From: Aureimonas flava
Lineage (GTDB): Bacteria > Pseudomonadota > Alphaproteobacteria > Rhizobiales > Rhizobiaceae
Length of the DNA stretch: 64,000 nt
Assembly: GCF_003583935.1 (NCBI RefSeq)
Contig: NZ_QYRN01000006.1
Location: 248,001-312,000 of the forward strand
Direction: 5' to 3'
Below the pieces are notes generated by a model. The model was not told the DNA's origin. It did not search any database and saw only the letters and a list, made by a program, of their open reading frames with translations. Made by a program: the position numbers and the translations under genes. Shown here piece after piece: positions 3,077-36,216 of the stretch. Every line of letters starts with the position of its first letter. The stretch's first letter is position 1.

Positions 3077-3340
3077 CTAACCTGGTTGCGAGAGCGGCCT
3101 AAGCGCAGCGGCAGAACGCGCTTCCGCCAGCGCGGTAGGGTGGATCATCGACAAGTTGCCGAGTGCTGACCCAATGGACAGTGACAAGCGCTCGATTGCC
3201 AGAACATGGACGAGACGAAGCGCTGAGCGTCCGTTCTCAATGTCCTGAATGGCTCGTAGGGACATACCCAGGTAATTAGCGAGTTGGGTCTGCGTCAGGC
3301 CCAGGCGCTTGCGGAGTGCGATGAACTCTTCGACAGTCAT
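3077..3340 (-). CDS. XRE-family helix-turn-helix regulator (87 aa)
   Basis: Residues 10-40 form a textbook Cro/CI-type HTH (LTQTQLANYLGMSLRAIQDI, then ENGR). The remaining 45 residues carry no recognisable dimer domain, so the protein is shorter than full CI repressors and closer to Cro or antitoxin-sized regulators. It reads leftward between the 27-residue membrane peptide and the secreted peptide. The natural target is the pair of 18-bp sites at 3541-3590, which overlap the promoter of its own operon. That link is inference from proximity. Confidence 0.85.
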   Translation of the reverse strand: MTVEEFIALRKRLGLTQTQLANYLGMSLRAIQDIENGRSALRLVHVLAIERLSLSIGSALGNLSMIHPTALAEARSAAALRPLSQPG

Positions 3341-3379
3341 TGATCGAAACCCTTCCGCAGCCTATCTTAGATGCTGCAA

Positions 3380-3403
3380 CCGGGGGACCCGTAGGCCCCC
3401 CGG
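3380..3403 (-). terminator. GC-rich hairpin between membrane peptide and XRE gene
   Basis: CCGGGGG (3380-3386) and CCCCCGG (3397-3403) form a 7-bp stem. On the leftward transcript it is followed by only two U residues, so it is a weak terminator, attenuator or processing stem that could lower XRE expression relative to the 27-residue peptide. Confidence 0.4.
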
Positions 3404-3410
3404 CCGCTTC

Positions 3411-3494
3411 TTACCTCAGGCTGATGATCAGGCTTCCTAGGGCGATGATCACTGCCAAGGCTTGAAGGATCAGGCTGGCTGTCTCGTAGGACAT
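3411..3494 (-). CDS. 27-residue single-span membrane peptide, Hol_Tox-like
   Basis: The peptide opens MSYETASLILQ and continues with a hydrophobic span (ALAVIIALGSLIISL) ending in Arg, so it is almost entirely one membrane helix. An AAGGAG ribosome site lies 7 bases upstream. The opening YETxSLxLQ followed by one span resembles the Hol_Tox holin-like toxins of Firmicutes and other short phage membrane peptides. It is the first gene of the leftward operon, behind an operator-bearing promoter and a leader hairpin, as expected for a toxic or signalling peptide. Family membership is tentative. Confidence 0.7.
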   Translation of the reverse strand: MSYETASLILQALAVIIALGSLIISLR

Positions 3495-3510
3495 GGCCTT
3501 CTCCTTTGCA

Positions 3511-3530
3511 GTCAGGCGGAATTGCCTGAC
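3511..3530 (-). promoter_or_regulatory. Leader hairpin just upstream of the 27-residue ORF ribosome site
   Basis: GTCAGGC and GCCTGAC form a perfect 7-bp stem with a 6-base loop in the 5' leader of the leftward mRNA, ending 10 bases before the AAGGAG site. It could control translation or RNA stability, or serve as a DNA operator. Confidence 0.5.
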
Positions 3531-3536
3531 CCGTTC

Positions 3537-3565
3537 TTTATATGCACAAACTGCGTATGATGCAA
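3537..3565 (-). promoter_or_regulatory. Sigma-70 promoter of the leftward control operon
   Basis: On the reverse strand a -35 box TTGCAT (3560-3565) is separated by exactly 17 bp from a -10 box TATAAA (3537-3542). It points at the 27-residue peptide and XRE genes. The spacer is filled by the first operator-like repeat (3541-3558), so a bound repressor would block polymerase directly. Confidence 0.7.
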
Positions 3566-3590
3566 CGGAGAATATGCAATAAATGCGTAT
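3541..3590. promoter_or_regulatory. Twin 18-bp operator-like sites
   Basis: TATGCACAAACTGCGTAT (3541-3558) and TATGCAATAAATGCGTAT (3573-3590) share 14 of 18 bases. Each is an imperfect palindrome with half-sites ATGCA and TGCGTAT. Their starts are 32 bp apart, about three helical turns, so two dimers would lie on the same face. Site 1 sits in the leftward promoter spacer. Site 2 overlaps a rightward TATTAT -10-like box (3588-3593) facing the tmRNA. Confidence 0.65.
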
Positions 3591-3597
3591 TATTCGG

Positions 3598-3623
3598 GCC
3601 CCGTCAGCTTCGGCTGGCGGGGC
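3598..3623 (+). other. 11-bp UUCG-tetraloop hairpin at the head of the tmRNA transcript
   Basis: GCCCCGTCAGC (3598-3608) pairs with GCTGGCGGGGC (3613-3623) through 11 pairs, one of them G-U, capped by TTCG. It falls right where transcription from the TATTAT box would begin, so it is likely the 5' stem of the tmRNA precursor. It could also terminate or insulate. No U-tract follows. Confidence 0.5.
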
Positions 3624-3640
3624 TCGTCGTTTGAGCTTCG

Positions 3641-3908
3641 GCGTCCGCATAGCGCCGTTGGCAGATGAGCGTAACCCGGACAGATCAGAAAGCAGTCGGA
3701 CGCGGGGGCAGAGCCCGCCGGCTCCACCATTGCGGGGCCGACACAGGATCGACGCCTGCGGGAAGAGATGAACGCGCTCGGGCATGGCGCCACCCTCATC
3801 GGGCCGACCACGGAACTGTCAACGACAACGTTCCCGCTGAGGATCGTCGCATCGCGGCGTAACCCTCTTGGGCTCGCCCGGCGGCCTCGAAACAGAAGGC
3901 CGGGCACC
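3641..3908 (+). ncRNA. ssrA: Prophage-encoded circularly permuted (two-piece, alphaproteobacterial-type) tmRNA
   Basis: The element order is that of a permuted tmRNA. First comes the acceptor piece with T-arm stem GCGGG/CCCGC (3702-3706, 3714-3718), acceptor 3' strand CGGCTCC (3719-3725) and ACCA (3726-3729). A 4-base gap follows. Then come the 5' acceptor strand GGGGCCG (3734-3740), the D-region GGATCGACG (3747-3755) and a tag frame (3818-3862) encoding VNDNVPAEDRRIAA-stop. A post-tag hairpin GCCCGGC/GCCGGGC lies at 3876-3905. The acceptor stem pairs over all 7 positions, with G-U at the third pair (3736 with 3723) and discriminator A, the alanine identity set. tmRNA-SmpB rescues stalled ribosomes and tags products for proteolysis. 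The T-loop GGCAGAG lacks the usual TTC. Outer ends are approximate. Confidence 0.88.
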
Positions 3909-3951
3909 GATTGCCTCGGGCGTTTGAAAAACAATCAAAGGAAATCAAACG

Positions 3952-4320
3952 ATGGGACGCGGCGGAAAGCGCGCTGGCGCCGGCCGTCGAAAGGGCGCGC
4001 AGAACAAAGCAACAGCGCAGCGTGAGCGCGACGTTGCGAAGGGCGGCGACACCCCGCTCGACTACATGCTGAAGGTCATGCGCAACCCAAGGGCTGACGG
4101 CGAGCGCCGCGACCGGATGGCGGTGGCCGCCGCCCCCTACGTTCACCCCAAGCTCGCATCCATGCAGCACACCGGGCCGAAGGGCGGGCCGATCCAAACC
4201 GTCGACGTCGCCAAGCTCAAGGGCATGACGAACGAGGAGCTCGACCTTCTTGAACGTGCACTTGTCCAGATCGGAATTGTTGACGGCGATCCGGGCCGAG
4301 AGGGATGCGAGGAGGTCTGA
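3952..4320 (+). CDS. Terminase small subunit
   Basis: 122 residues. The N-terminus GRGGKRAGAGRRKGAQNK is the basic, glycine-rich opening typical of small terminase subunits in alphaproteobacterial phages, followed by a helical central part and an acidic C-terminal tail (NEELDLLERAL) that normally contacts TerL. An AAAGGAA ribosome site precedes the ATG. The gene overlaps the large subunit frame by about 70 bases, so translation is coupled. It binds the packaging site on phage DNA. Confidence 0.85.
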   Translation: MGRGGKRAGAGRRKGAQNKATAQRERDVAKGGDTPLDYMLKVMRNPRADGERRDRMAVAAAPYVHPKLASMQHTGPKGGPIQTVDVAKLKGMTNEELDLLERALVQIGIVDGDPGREGCEEV

Positions 4321-5764
4321 GGACGATCGGCTTGCCGAGCGCCGTCGGCTGCTCGCATCCCATCAGGTCTTCACCACCAAGTTCTTCCTCGAGAAGGAGG
4401 GGCAACCGTTCTCGGTCGCCGCCTTCCACAGGGTCATTTTCTACACGCTCGACCGGGTGTTCACCGGCGAGATCAAGCGCCTGATCATCAACGTGCCGCC
4501 GGGCTACGGGAAGACCGAGCTGGCGGTGGTGAACTTTATCGCCCGCGGCTTCGCGATCAACCCGCGCGCCCGCTTCATCCACGCCAGCTACGCCCAGGCG
4601 CTTGCGCTCGACAACTCGTCCAAGGTGAAGGACGTGATCGGGCTGGAGGGGTACCAAGCGCACTGGCCGGTGCGGATGCGGGCCGACACGAACGCGAAAG
4701 GCCTGTGGCGGACTACCGAGGGCGGGCATCTTCGCGCGGCCGCCGCGGGTGAACCGATCACCGGATTCCGAGCTGGCATTCTAGCCGAACCGGGGTTCAC
4801 TGGCGCTCTGGTCATCGACGATCCGCTGAAGCCGGACGACGCCTCATCGGACACGACACGGAAGTTCATCAACGCCCGGTGGGAGAATACCTTCAAGTCG
4901 CGCCTCGCGCACGAGGACGTGCCGGTCATCGTGATCATGCAACGGTTGCACGTCGACGACTTCGTGGCGCACCTTCTGGAGAACTCGGGCGAGCACTGGC
5001 ATCTGCTGAGGCTGCCCGTCCTCATAGAGGGCCCAGGAGAGGCGCCGGCCGGTGATGTGACGCTGGTCCCGCACGGGCTGCCCGACGGCCCCCTGTGGGC
5101 TCAGAAGCACACGCTGGCGCAGATCGCCACGCTGCAGGCCGCGCCGCATGTCTATGCCGGCCAGTACGCGCAGGAACCGACCGTCGCGGGTGGCAACTTG
5201 TTTAAGCCAGGACTAATGCCGCGCTATGTGGACGTGCCGCGCCTGTTGTGGCGCGCCATCTACGTCGACACGGCGCAGAAGACCAAGGAGCGCAACGACT
5301 ACACGGTGCTGGAGCACTGGGGCGCGGGAGCGGATGGGAAGGCCTATCTGCTCGACGTCGTGCGTGGCCGCTTCGAGGCGCCGGAACTGGAATCAACCGC
5401 AAAGACGCTGTGGGATCGATGCCGCGGATCGGAATGGCCGGTCGAACGCTTCGGGCACCTCCGCAAGATGGCGATCGAGGACAAGGTGTCGGGCACGGGC
5501 CTGATCCAGTCCCTAGCGCGCAAGTCGGTGCCGGTGATCGCCCTGCAGCGGGATCGAGACAAGTACACGCGAGCCCTCGACGTGGTGCCGAGCGCCGTCA
5601 CGGGGCTGGTGGTGCTGCCTGAGAGCGCGCCGTGGCTGAAGGCCTTCGAAAGCGAACTGGCGGCATTCCCTGACGGCTCGTTCGACGATCAGGTGGATCC
5701 GTTTGTCGACGCCGTGTCCGAGATATGCGGCGCGCCGAGCTACACCCTCGCCAACCTGGGATGA
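4250..5764 (+). CDS. terL: Terminase large subunit (packaging ATPase and nuclease)
   Basis: 504 residues from a TTG start. The true start is uncertain because no ATG lies nearby; a GTG at 4256 is also possible. The ATPase domain has Walker A NVPPGYGKTE at about residues 81-90 and Walker B ALVIDDP with D190/D191. The C-terminal RNase H-like nuclease shows IYVDTAQ and the closing GSFDDQVDPFVDA motif. The motor pumps DNA into the prohead and cuts it. It is followed by a 45-residue gene and then the portal gene, the usual packaging order. Confidence 0.93.
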   Translation: MNVHLSRSELLTAIRAERDARRSEDDRLAERRRLLASHQVFTTKFFLEKEGQPFSVAAFHRVIFYTLDRVFTGEIKRLIINVPPGYGKTELAVVNFIARGFAINPRARFIHASYAQALALDNSSKVKDVIGLEGYQAHWPVRMRADTNAKGLWRTTEGGHLRAAAAGEPITGFRAGILAEPGFTGALVIDDPLKPDDASSDTTRKFINARWENTFKSRLAHEDVPVIVIMQRLHVDDFVAHLLENSGEHWHLLRLPVLIEGPGEAPAGDVTLVPHGLPDGPLWAQKHTLAQIATLQAAPHVYAGQYAQEPTVAGGNLFKPGLMPRYVDVPRLLWRAIYVDTAQKTKERNDYTVLEHWGAGADGKAYLLDVVRGRFEAPELESTAKTLWDRCRGSEWPVERFGHLRKMAIEDKVSGTGLIQSLARKSVPVIALQRDRDKYTRALDVVPSAVTGLVVLPESAPWLKAFESELAAFPDGSFDDQVDPFVDAVSEICGAPSYTLANLG

Positions 5765-5915: not shown

Positions 5916-7724
5916 ATGCGCGTTTGGGATACGCTCTCCAACCTCATCACCGGAATGGGGACGGCCAAGGCCAAGAGCTCGGCCACGGTCTACGCCTATG
6001 CCCCCATGGCACCAGGCGAACTGGAGGCGGCTTATCGTGGCTCCTGGCTTGCACGCAAGGTGATCGACATCCCGGCGATGGAGATGTGCCGCGCCTGGCG
6101 CCTATGGCAGGCCGAAGACGACCAGATCGAAGCCATTGAGGCCGAGGAACAGCGCCTCGGGCTGAAGGCGAAGACGCTGGAGGCGAAGACCAAGGCCCGT
6201 CTCTACGGCGGCGCGGCGATCGTGATCAGCGACGGCTCGACCGAACTTACGGAAGAGCTGCGGCCGGATCGTATTCAGAAGGGTGGCGTGCGCTTTCTGT
6301 CGGTGCTGACGTGCCGCGCGCTCACTGCCGGCGAGATGGAGACGGACCCGCTGTCGCAGTGGGTCGGCCAGCCGAAATTCTACCACATGCGCTCGGATGG
6401 GCGGGATATCCGGATCCACCCGTCGCGCCTAGTGCGCCACATCGGTGTTGGGCTGCCCGAGGATGGCTTGGGCGGCGCGACTTCGGGCTGGGGGGACAGC
6501 GTTCTCGAGCCCGTGCACAAGGCGCTGAAGGACGCCGAGAGCGCGGCCGCGAACATCGCTGAGATGACGCACGAGACGAAGGTCGACGTCGTCAAGGTGC
6601 CGAACCTAATGGCCCACGCCGCCGATCCCGACTATGAGGCCCGCTTCCTCCGCCGCACGCAGCTCGCGATGACGGCGAAGTCCGTGAACAACACCCTGCT
6701 GCTCGACAAGGAAGAGGAGTTCGAGCAGAAGACGATGGCATTCGGCACGCTGCCCGATGTCCTCGACCGCTTCCTGCAGATCGCGTCCGGCGCAGCCGAC
6801 ATCCCGGCGACCCGCCTCCTGGGTCAGTCCCCAGCCGGCATGAACGCCACCGGTGAATCCGACCTGCGCAACTTCTACGACCGCATCGCCGCGGGGCAAG
6901 AGCTGGAGCTTCGGCCTGCCATGGCGCTGCTCGACGAATGCCTGATCCGCTCCGCGCTCGGCTCCCGCCCGCCCGAGATCCACTACAAGTGGGCCCCGCT
7001 CTGGCAGATGGGAGAGAAGGACCGGGCCGAGGTCAACCTGAAGAACGCCCAGGCCTTCCAGATCGACGCGAACTCGGGCCTGTTCCCCGATAGCGCGTTG
7101 TCGAAGGGGCGCATCAACCAGTGCGTCGAGGCCGGCACCTATCCGGGGCTGGAGAACGCGCTGGACGAGGCGGAGGGCGAGGGCGACGCGATCGACTTCT
7201 CGGCAAAGGCGGGAGAGCCCGAGGTGCAGCCTGCACCGGTGGTGCGGATGCAGGCCGCGGCGAACGATGCCGAACCGCGTCCGCTCTACGTCCACCGCAA
7301 GGTGCTGAACGGCGCTGCGATCCGGGCATGGGCCAAGACGCAGGGCTTCACCTCGACGCTCGAAGCCTCCGACCTGCACGTCACCATCGCATTCAGCCGG
7401 CAGCCGCTGGACTGGATGAAGGTCGGCGAAAGCTGGGAGGAAGAAATCAAGATCGCCGCCGGCGGGCCCCGTGTCATGGAGCAGTTCGGCGAGGCGACGG
7501 TGCTGCTGATCCCGAGCCGGTCGCTTCAGTGGCGGCACGAGGAGATCAAGGCGGCTGGCGCTTCGTGGGATCACGAGGAGTACCAGCCGCACATCACGAT
7601 CAGCTACGGCGGTGCACCTGCGGACCTGTCTGCGGTCGAGCCGTATCAAGGCGAGATCGTGCTGGGGCCCGAGGTGTTCGAGCCGCTCGATCTCGACTGG
7701 AAGGCGAAGGTGACCGAGGCATGA
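5916..7724 (+). CDS. Portal protein (DUF1073/Phage_portal_3) fused to an Acb1-like 2H phosphoesterase
   Basis: 602 residues. Residues 1 to about 400 are a portal of the DUF1073 type (early segments AYRGSWLARKVIDIPA and MEMCRAW, later GMNATGESDLRNFYDRI). After a charged linker, residues about 440-600 carry two HxT motifs, H488-V-T490 in LHVTIAF and H559-I-T561 in PHITISY, 71 residues apart, as in 2H phosphoesterases. Phage T4 Acb1 uses two HxT motifs at similar spacing to destroy the cyclic oligonucleotides that activate CBASS. Activity against such messengers is inferred. The next gene starts 4 bases before this stop. Confidence 0.9.
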   Translation: MRVWDTLSNLITGMGTAKAKSSATVYAYAPMAPGELEAAYRGSWLARKVIDIPAMEMCRAWRLWQAEDDQIEAIEAEEQRLGLKAKTLEAKTKARLYGGAAIVISDGSTELTEELRPDRIQKGGVRFLSVLTCRALTAGEMETDPLSQWVGQPKFYHMRSDGRDIRIHPSRLVRHIGVGLPEDGLGGATSGWGDSVLEPVHKALKDAESAAANIAEMTHETKVDVVKVPNLMAHAADPDYEARFLRRTQLAMTAKSVNNTLLLDKEEEFEQKTMAFGTLPDVLDRFLQIASGAADIPATRLLGQSPAGMNATGESDLRNFYDRIAAGQELELRPAMALLDECLIRSALGSRPPEIHYKWAPLWQMGEKDRAEVNLKNAQAFQIDANSGLFPDSALSKGRINQCVEAGTYPGLENALDEAEGEGDAIDFSAKAGEPEVQPAPVVRMQAAANDAEPRPLYVHRKVLNGAAIRAWAKTQGFTSTLEASDLHVTIAFSRQPLDWMKVGESWEEEIKIAAGGPRVMEQFGEATVLLIPSRSLQWRHEEIKAAGASWDHEEYQPHITISYGGAPADLSAVEPYQGEIVLGPEVFEPLDLDWKAKVTEA

Positions 7725-11793: not shown

Positions 11794-12351
11794 ATGACCG
11801 ACATCACCAACAACTCGGGCGGGCCGATCGGCCTCCCCAACGGCCAGGTGATCCAGCCGAAGGCCACGGTTGATGTGCAGGATTGGGATGACCAGTCCGG
11901 GCACGTGGTCGTCAAGGCGTGGCTCAAGGCCAAGGTGCTGACGACCGGGAAGCCGGCAGAGCCCGAGCAGACGGGCGACGGCCGAGACGAGAACGGCGAC
12001 ACGCCCGAGATGGCCGAGATGCGCAAGCGCTTCGACGCATCCTACGCGCAGGCAGCCGGCGAGATCGAGCGTCTGAACGGCGAGCTTGCCGCGCGCGACG
12101 CCACGATCATGGAGCTGCAGGCGTCGCAGGCGTCGCAGGCATCGGCTGGTCCGGCTGCCGGCGGCGAAGGCGAGCAGGATCCGCCCAAGCCCACCTTCTC
12201 CGTGAAGGACAAGGGCCGCGGATGGTTCGCCATCGTCGACGCCGACGGCAACGAGGTGACCAAGTCGCTGCGTGACGACGCCGTGGAAGGCTTCGACGCC
12301 AAGTCCGACGAGGACAAGGCCGCCTTCGTCGACGCCAACAAGGCGGACTGA
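11794..12351 (+). CDS. Head-operon protein with LPNGQ domain, paralogue A (185 aa)
   Basis: The N-terminal 50 residues (LPNGQVIQPKATVDV, then DWDDQSGHVVVKAWLKAKVL) are closely related to those of the next gene. A coiled coil follows (about residues 70-110), then a repetitive SQASQAS linker and a C-terminal small domain (KGRGWFAIVDADGNEV). The pair looks like a tandem duplication that then diverged. Its place after the capsid gene suggests a minor head or decoration protein. Function unknown. Confidence 0.75.
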   Translation: MTDITNNSGGPIGLPNGQVIQPKATVDVQDWDDQSGHVVVKAWLKAKVLTTGKPAEPEQTGDGRDENGDTPEMAEMRKRFDASYAQAAGEIERLNGELAARDATIMELQASQASQASAGPAAGGEGEQDPPKPTFSVKDKGRGWFAIVDADGNEVTKSLRDDAVEGFDAKSDEDKAAFVDANKAD

Positions 12352-36171: not shown

Positions 36172-36216
36172 TTCCTAATCTGGGGGTCGTAGGTTCGAAT
36201 CCTACTGGGATCACCA
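36172..36216 (+). other. attR: displaced 3' half of a tRNA gene, probably tRNA-Arg(CCU)
   Basis: From the anticodon loop TTCCTAA (36172-36178, anticodon CCT) the sequence runs through TCTGG, a 5-base variable loop, T-arm GTAGG-TTCGAAT-CCTAC and acceptor strand TGGGATC to ACCA (36213-36216). The bases upstream of the loop (GCATCTGC) cannot pair with TCTGG, so no intact tRNA is present. This is the scar expected at the far end of a prophage integrated into a tRNA gene, and it sets the phage-host boundary. Confidence 0.8.

Follow-up and report, generated by a model that had tools for sequence, protein, structure and literature searches.

Phage-borne tmRNAs, two-piece forms among them, are already in print. 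As far as the accessible text of the reports goes, early cases were listed together with a tag-less form in DS6A (PMC4131195), a two-piece tmRNA was described in the Methylophilales phage Melnitz, in a paper that also assigns the two-piece form to 53 of the 133 unique structures of phage tmRNAs obtained from 18,146 genomes (PMC9004378), 79 phage tmRNA sequences were listed, and the permuted sequences of the tmRNA database put at 11,946, in the work in which Rfam family RF04321 was built (PMC11915505), and a tmRNA with a proposed role in rescue was reported in phages of Bradyrhizobium elkanii (PMC12656738).

The stretch of DNA analysed here (64 kb, bases 248001–312000 of contig C23, hereafter the window) carries a prophage-borne permuted two-piece tmRNA gene at 3641–3908 of its forward strand, recognised by reading of the sequence and by Rfam. 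To judge from the accessible description, it resembles the Melnitz gene in being phage-borne, two-piece and of the alphaproteobacterial type; the Melnitz authors, however, found no integrase and report a glutamine riboswitch (PMC9004378), whereas the phage of the window is integrated and no riboswitch family was found above cut-off in the window by cmscan. The likeness to the B. elkanii phages, again by description, lies in a tmRNA carried by phages of Rhizobiales hosts, but those phages are virulent according to the title of the report (PMC12656738). Three isolates, Mesorhizobium phage Cp1R7A-A1, Erythrobacter phage XM05 and vB_EliS-L02, carry permuted tmRNAs which cluster with that of the window (UFBoot 99) and are unannotated in the record stretches examined; they differ in insert length (93, 94 and 88 nt, respectively), in genome size (131–152 kb) and in having no terminase annotated in those stretches. 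Compared with the Rfam models RF01849 and RF04321, the gene has in common the permuted order, the G-U third pair, T arm, D-region, tag frame and closing hairpin, and differs by its 4-nt insert (28 nt in the host gene), mismatches in the long P2 helix and a lower score.

No publication on this prophage, itself without a name to search by, was recognised in a literature search. The novelty assumed in an earlier first-pass annotation of this DNA is lower than was taken, phage two-piece tmRNAs having been published as far as the accessible text describes them (PMC9004378); it is well supported that the present case adds a compact form in a temperate phage.

Detection and architecture of the tmRNA gene

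The whole window was scanned with cmscan at gathering cut-offs, and the only two matches both fell at the tmRNA locus on the forward strand: RF01849 (alpha_tmRNA) at 3654–3862 (72.8 bits, E = 6.8e-18, cut-off 50) and RF04321 (tmRNA_permuted) at 3667–3862 (95.8 bits, E = 2.6e-17, cut-off 47). The above-cut-off RF01849 match lies on the strand for which the first-pass annotation had predicted it. The interval 3641–3908 is a fair span for the gene. Its parts follow one another as previously read, in split-tmRNA order (acceptor 3′ strand and ACCA ahead of the 5′ strand, then D-region, tag and hairpin), and the perfect 7-bp acceptor stem with a third-pair G-U claimed at that time is indeed present (Table 1). 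The G3-U70 pair is an identity mark for alanine. The tag ends in IAA, and its frame is open to the stop codon.

A composite of 7-bp acceptor stem, G-U beside CCACCA and 5-bp T stem occurred once in the window and not at all in 100 dinucleotide-shuffled windows searched on both strands. These shuffled windows, together with the pair covariation described below, rule out a chance fold as the source of the tmRNA signal. ARAGORN detected no tmRNA anywhere in the window; among viral relatives (denoted by locus labels), it recovered the tmRNAs of L112 and L142, each with the tag anticipated for it, and missed those of L118 and L123.

Table 1. Coordinates of the tmRNA parts and neighbouring features in the window
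Feature	Position	Strand	Remarks
Prophage portion within window	1–36188		Left att ~15.4 kb before window; right att 36172–36188
XRE-type HTH regulator gene	3077–3340	-	Divergent from tmRNA; PF01381, 1.6e-10
Near-palindrome ATATGCA-N5-TGCGTAT, two copies	3540–3590		Copies at 3540–3558 and 3572–3590; candidate operators
14-bp hairpin upstream of tmRNA	3595–3626	+	4-nt TTCG loop; -29.3 kcal/mol over 3595–3640
Acceptor (3′) piece	3641–3729	+	Transcribed first; encoded CCA at end; Rfam alignments begin at 3654 and 3667; 5′ limit approximate
Outer helix arm GAGCG	3667–3671	+	Pairs with CGCTC 3775–3779; 100% paired in six viral tmRNAs
P2 strand GCAGTCG	3692–3698	+	Pairs with CGCCTGC 3753–3759; one U-C mismatch
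T arm	3702–3718	+	Stem GCGGG/CCCGC (3702–3706/3714–3718); loop GGCAGAG
Acceptor stem 3′ strand CGGCTCC	3719–3725	+	Followed by ACCA 3726–3729
Intervening segment TTGC	3730–3733	+	4 nt; 28 nt in host ssrA by the same script
Acceptor stem 5′ strand GGGGCCG	3734–3740	+	Coding piece begins; third pair G-U
Conserved D-region GGATCGACG	3746–3754	+	
Tag frame VNDNVPAEDRRIAA + TAA	3818–3862	+	14 codons; resume codon GTC inferred by alignment with other alpha tags
Closing hairpin	3876–3905	+	7-bp stem 3876–3882/3899–3905; loop with AACAGAA
Terminase small subunit	3952–4320	+	phrog_641 (terminase small subunit), 2.3e-7; overlaps next gene
Terminase large subunit	4262–5764	+	phrog_38, 3.7e-97

Conservation of the fold

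Six short-insert viral tmRNAs (window, L137, L112, L123, L118 and L142) were aligned (alignment A1), and a structure of 26 pairs in five helices (156 pair cells), drawn from the window sequence, was scored on them. Standard pairs occupied 95.5% of the cells and both-side changes were seen at 11 of the 26 pairs (24 cells), neither value being equalled in any of 500 shuffles, which indicates that the tmRNA fold is under selection. A count of pair types was weaker, with 16 of 500 shuffles reaching the observed value. Slid-structure controls gave at most 48.1% standard pairs and at most three both-side pairs, a comparison in which the origin of the structure in the window sequence favours the true fold.

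Both-side changes affected four of the five pairs of the outer helix GAGCG/CGCTC, and 86.1% of P2 cells were paired in the six sequences when the position of the U-C mismatch was excluded. The third-pair G-U was conserved in all six. A closing hairpin of 6–7 bp was located by script in five, and in L137, where the script misplaced it, one of 7 bp was found by eye on A1. In the long P2 helix as modelled in RF01849, the middle 7-pair block and the inner block carry mismatches in the window; on A1, the inner and outer blocks of the long helix are paired and covary, with the RF01849 middle block mismatched. The T loop reads GGCAGAG here and in phage XM05, versus GGCAGTA in L118, L123 and L142. The L118 tmRNA (3913–4204) belongs to a viral contig of 120 kb, of which the 7.7 kb examined contain 26 tRNA genes; the tag frame of this tmRNA ends in RRKY rather than AA, either because the tag differs or because the sequence contains an error.

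Prophage setting and the slot upstream of the terminase genes

A 17-base att repeat was found at -15454 and 36172–36188 (window coordinates), the left copy lying within a tRNA-Arg(CCT) gene. The prophage delimited in this way measures ~51.6 kb, in agreement with a 51,439-base IMG/VR record, and has an integrase gene at its left end. Because the att repeat belongs to the tRNA-Arg(CCT) gene and the tmRNA lies ~19 kb inside the left end, the tmRNA is not the attachment site, and the earlier view of it as a gene inside the phage, rather than a host gene used for attachment, holds. An att-site fragment of host ssrA was also ruled out, the repeat being in tRNA-Arg and the host ssrA matching the model end to end.

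Downstream of the tmRNA, and in its orientation, come genes for terminase, portal, head protease, capsid and sheath. The terminase small subunit gene, previously placed 80 bp away, starts 44 nt after 3908; its top match is phrog_15261, a family of unknown function (1.8e-19). The C-terminal stretch of the portal protein (5916–7724) matches the anti-CBASS family Acb1 (PF23474, 1.7e-44). On the reverse strand, a frame for a hydrophobic 27-aa peptide (3411–3494) adjoins the XRE gene; its Hol_Tox match (E = 0.076) is below cut-off.

Related terminase small subunits were found at 28 viral loci, 23 of which were scanned with Rfam (all except L022, L026, L027, L029 and L030); a tmRNA was present only in L003, the IMG/VR record of the same prophage. 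None was detected in 17 of 19 genome loci scanned likewise, L147 and L149 having been left out because they gave the same matches as L005 and L008. Altogether, 39 other terminase-related loci contained no tmRNA in the scanned stretches, which covered up to 3 kb upstream (less in some), with the same phage possibly present in both sets. This rules out the tmRNA as a fixed feature of the phage group and makes it look like swapped-in cargo. L005 and L006 share the sequence just before the terminase small subunit start and have different open frames upstream which, taken with the 39 loci lacking a tmRNA, indicates that what precedes the terminase genes is variable, the tmRNA occupying this place in the window. 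Further upstream, L005, L006, L010, L147 and L148 match the frame at 1179–2342. Among tmRNA-bearing relatives, that of L112 precedes two genes, one for a head-tail adaptor and one for head morphogenesis, and for the gene beside that of L137 the sole match is to a family without known function.

Short inserts among viral and bacterial tmRNAs

The insert measures 4 nt in the window and 2–3 nt in L112, L118, L070/L123, L137 and L142, as against 13–53 nt in 40 further sequences of the host's family (the 30 with the highest scores and those of the nine multi-match genomes, out of 148) and 74–106 nt in five isolate phages. An exact-pattern survey found inserts of ~6 nt or less in one genome out of 396 others in the order and in nine out of 384 others in the class, G068, the source of the L070 contig, being outside the genomes listed. 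In all ten short-insert genomes, the short-insert gene was the sole above-cut-off tmRNA, which rules out the tiny insert as a phage-only trait: short inserts are rare, and they are not a phage invention. In nearly insert-free tmRNAs, release of the CCA end becomes a question of its own.

Host ssrA and placement of the phage gene

RF01849 matched the host genome twice, at the phage copy and, with 297.1 bits, at a full-length ssrA on contig C5. The comparison with host ssrA proposed in the first-pass annotation was thereby possible: the C5 gene is separate and complete, 59–60% identical to the phage RNA, and encodes a different tag (ANDNYAEARLAA versus VNDNVPAEDRRIAA in the phage). A single smpB match was found, on contig C21. 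One lysogen can, in other words, carry two diverged ssrA genes, one of phage lineage and here in a form overlooked by a widely used gene finder.

Permuted tmRNA matches were present in 148 of 151 genomes of the host's family. A DNA search of these 151 genomes with the window tmRNA placed G068 at the top of nine others (71% over 147 bases), and a plasmid search returned no match. In the phage collection, the top blastn match was XM05 (80.6% over 35% of the query). L137 and L112 are 76% and 70–71% identical to the window tmRNA, respectively; blastn of the L137 tmRNA against phages gave no match. Pattern searches of viral contigs gave 54 and 41 matches, with chance matches and possibly host contigs among them.

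The first tree comprised 101 sequences, L191 and L210 having been removed for length from the 103 rows extracted; XM05 (L167), vB_EliS-L02 (L169) and a Bordetella phage (L174) were absent, being unmatched by the extraction pattern. In it the window grouped with L137, L112, Cp1R7A-A1 (L168), the G068 contig (L070), L118, L142 and Lacusarx (L170) (UFBoot 98, FastTree 0.94), and the host gene fell in a separate 38-member chromosomal clade (UFBoot 90). A second tree of 104 rows, with L167, L169 and L174 added, recovered a clade of the window, L137, L112, L168, L070, L167, L169 and L174 (UFBoot 99), with the host gene again in a separate clade (UFBoot 99) and L118, L142 and L170 attached with low support (52 and 44). 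With these 104 rows, FastTree supported a phage group of nine members at 0.92 and the trio of window, L137 and L112 at 0.95. L168 fell within the window-L137-L112 group in the 101-sequence tree and outside it in the 104-sequence tree, and L174, at 50% identity, was perhaps drawn in by a long branch. The phage company of the window tmRNA is stable across trees, its exact clade membership is not.

Proposed function and alternative explanations

We consider it likely that the locus is the complete permuted ssrA of a temperate tailed phage, giving rise to a working two-piece tmRNA that relies on host SmpB and alanyl-tRNA synthetase and supplements rescue in lytic growth. The gene, its conserved fold, its tag frame, the prophage around it and the separate host ssrA and smpB are established here; the expression, processing, charging, rescue activity and timing of this RNA we infer. 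A single transcript would lose the 4-nt insert between the CCA and the 5′ acceptor strand, and its two parts, kept in contact through the acceptor stem and P2 arm, would make up a tmRNA that the host synthetase would charge with alanine. With host SmpB attached, this tmRNA would enter ribosomes stalled on broken messages, add alanine followed by VNDNVPAEDRRIAA and free the ribosome, and the AA end of the tag would direct the product to host proteases. Because the gene occupies a slot of variable cargo ahead of the terminase and other late genes, it is a probable supplement to rescue in lytic growth; as the phage tag keeps the AA end, nothing here favours redirected proteolysis. With two distinct tags per cell, mass spectrometry could tell tagging by the phage RNA from tagging by the host RNA. 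The Rfam matches, the composite missing from shuffled windows, the covarying pairs, the closing hairpin, the phage company in both trees, the separate host ssrA and smpB, the integrase, att repeats and structural genes, and the additional tmRNA of G068 described below all speak for a working phage tmRNA. On the other side stand the ARAGORN miss, the unpaired parts of the long helix with the U-C mismatch in P2, the T loop unlike that of L118, L123 and L142, the lack of a sigma-70 promoter-like site in 3300–4300 and the 39 related loci in which the slot holds no tmRNA.

The region upstream bears on a different reading, in which a working tmRNA would chiefly control the lysogeny switch or the start of late genes, and supplementing rescue would not be its main use. 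Between the divergent XRE gene and the tmRNA lie two near-palindromes, possibly operators, which are the only such sites in the window (both strands, up to two mismatches; chance mean 0.05), and host tmRNA reportedly affects phage growth and repressor stability (PMC12656738, citing others, in its accessible text). Since the operators are putative and phage relatives of the tmRNA occur in other contexts, we regard this regulatory role as unlikely, although it survives best among the alternatives. No sigma-70 promoter-like site was found in 3300–4300, and the hairpin at 3595–3626 is not followed by a T run.

A bolder extension of the rescue reading would have an XRE switch with paired operators control the phage tmRNA, the altered tag and near-absent insert serve phage-run rescue and tagging in lytic growth, and a downstream phage peptidase in some relatives complete a phage-owned tag-and-degrade system; we hold this to be speculative and rather doubtful.

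Could the gene instead be a decaying copy of host-type ssrA with no present function? Its score, far below that of host ssrA (72.8 versus 297.1 bits), and the long-helix mismatches point that way, but the acceptor and T stems are perfect, the tag is intact, pairs covary with diverged viral relatives, identity to host ssrA is just 59–60% with tree placement among phages, and the att site is tRNA-Arg rather than ssrA, all of which renders decay quite improbable. Least probable, and only barely worth entertaining, is a decoy that ties up SmpB and so inhibits trans-translation in the host, a role proposed for the tmRNA of mycobacteriophage DS6A, which lacks a tag: an inhibitory phage form barely extending beyond the tRNA-like domain has precedent in the accessible text of PMC4131195 and PMC11915505, but the full tag frame with stop, the AA end and the closing hairpin are all kept here.

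Further tmRNA loci in related genomes and phages

Nine non-host genomes of the family had more than one match at first, and on re-search an extra above-cut-off match was found in three of them (G043, G068 and G100). G068 has its own ssrA, and its extra tmRNA lies on a 55,892-base contig also listed as viral in IMG/VR, where a record of equal length bears the same tmRNA, with a terminase small subunit gene ~2 kb downstream. At one locus of G100 (contig C3, 5143–5766; L144), tmRNA matches occur in tandem (151.7 and 87.8 bits).

All eight phage isolates chosen from the blastn matches carry an above-cut-off permuted tmRNA, annotated only in Lacusarx in the record stretches examined. In XM05 (1714–2982 of L167) and vB_EliS-L02 (2421–3764 of L169), the unannotated permuted tmRNA lies 0.4–0.5 kb upstream of a gene annotated as an HslV-family peptidase or proteasome subunit; Pfam gave no above-cut-off match for these annotated genes, leaving the annotation unconfirmed. 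In Roseobacter phage DSS3P8 (L173, 1843–2276), a GOLLD RNA match (150.7 bits, cut-off 150) lies just upstream of an unannotated permuted tmRNA.
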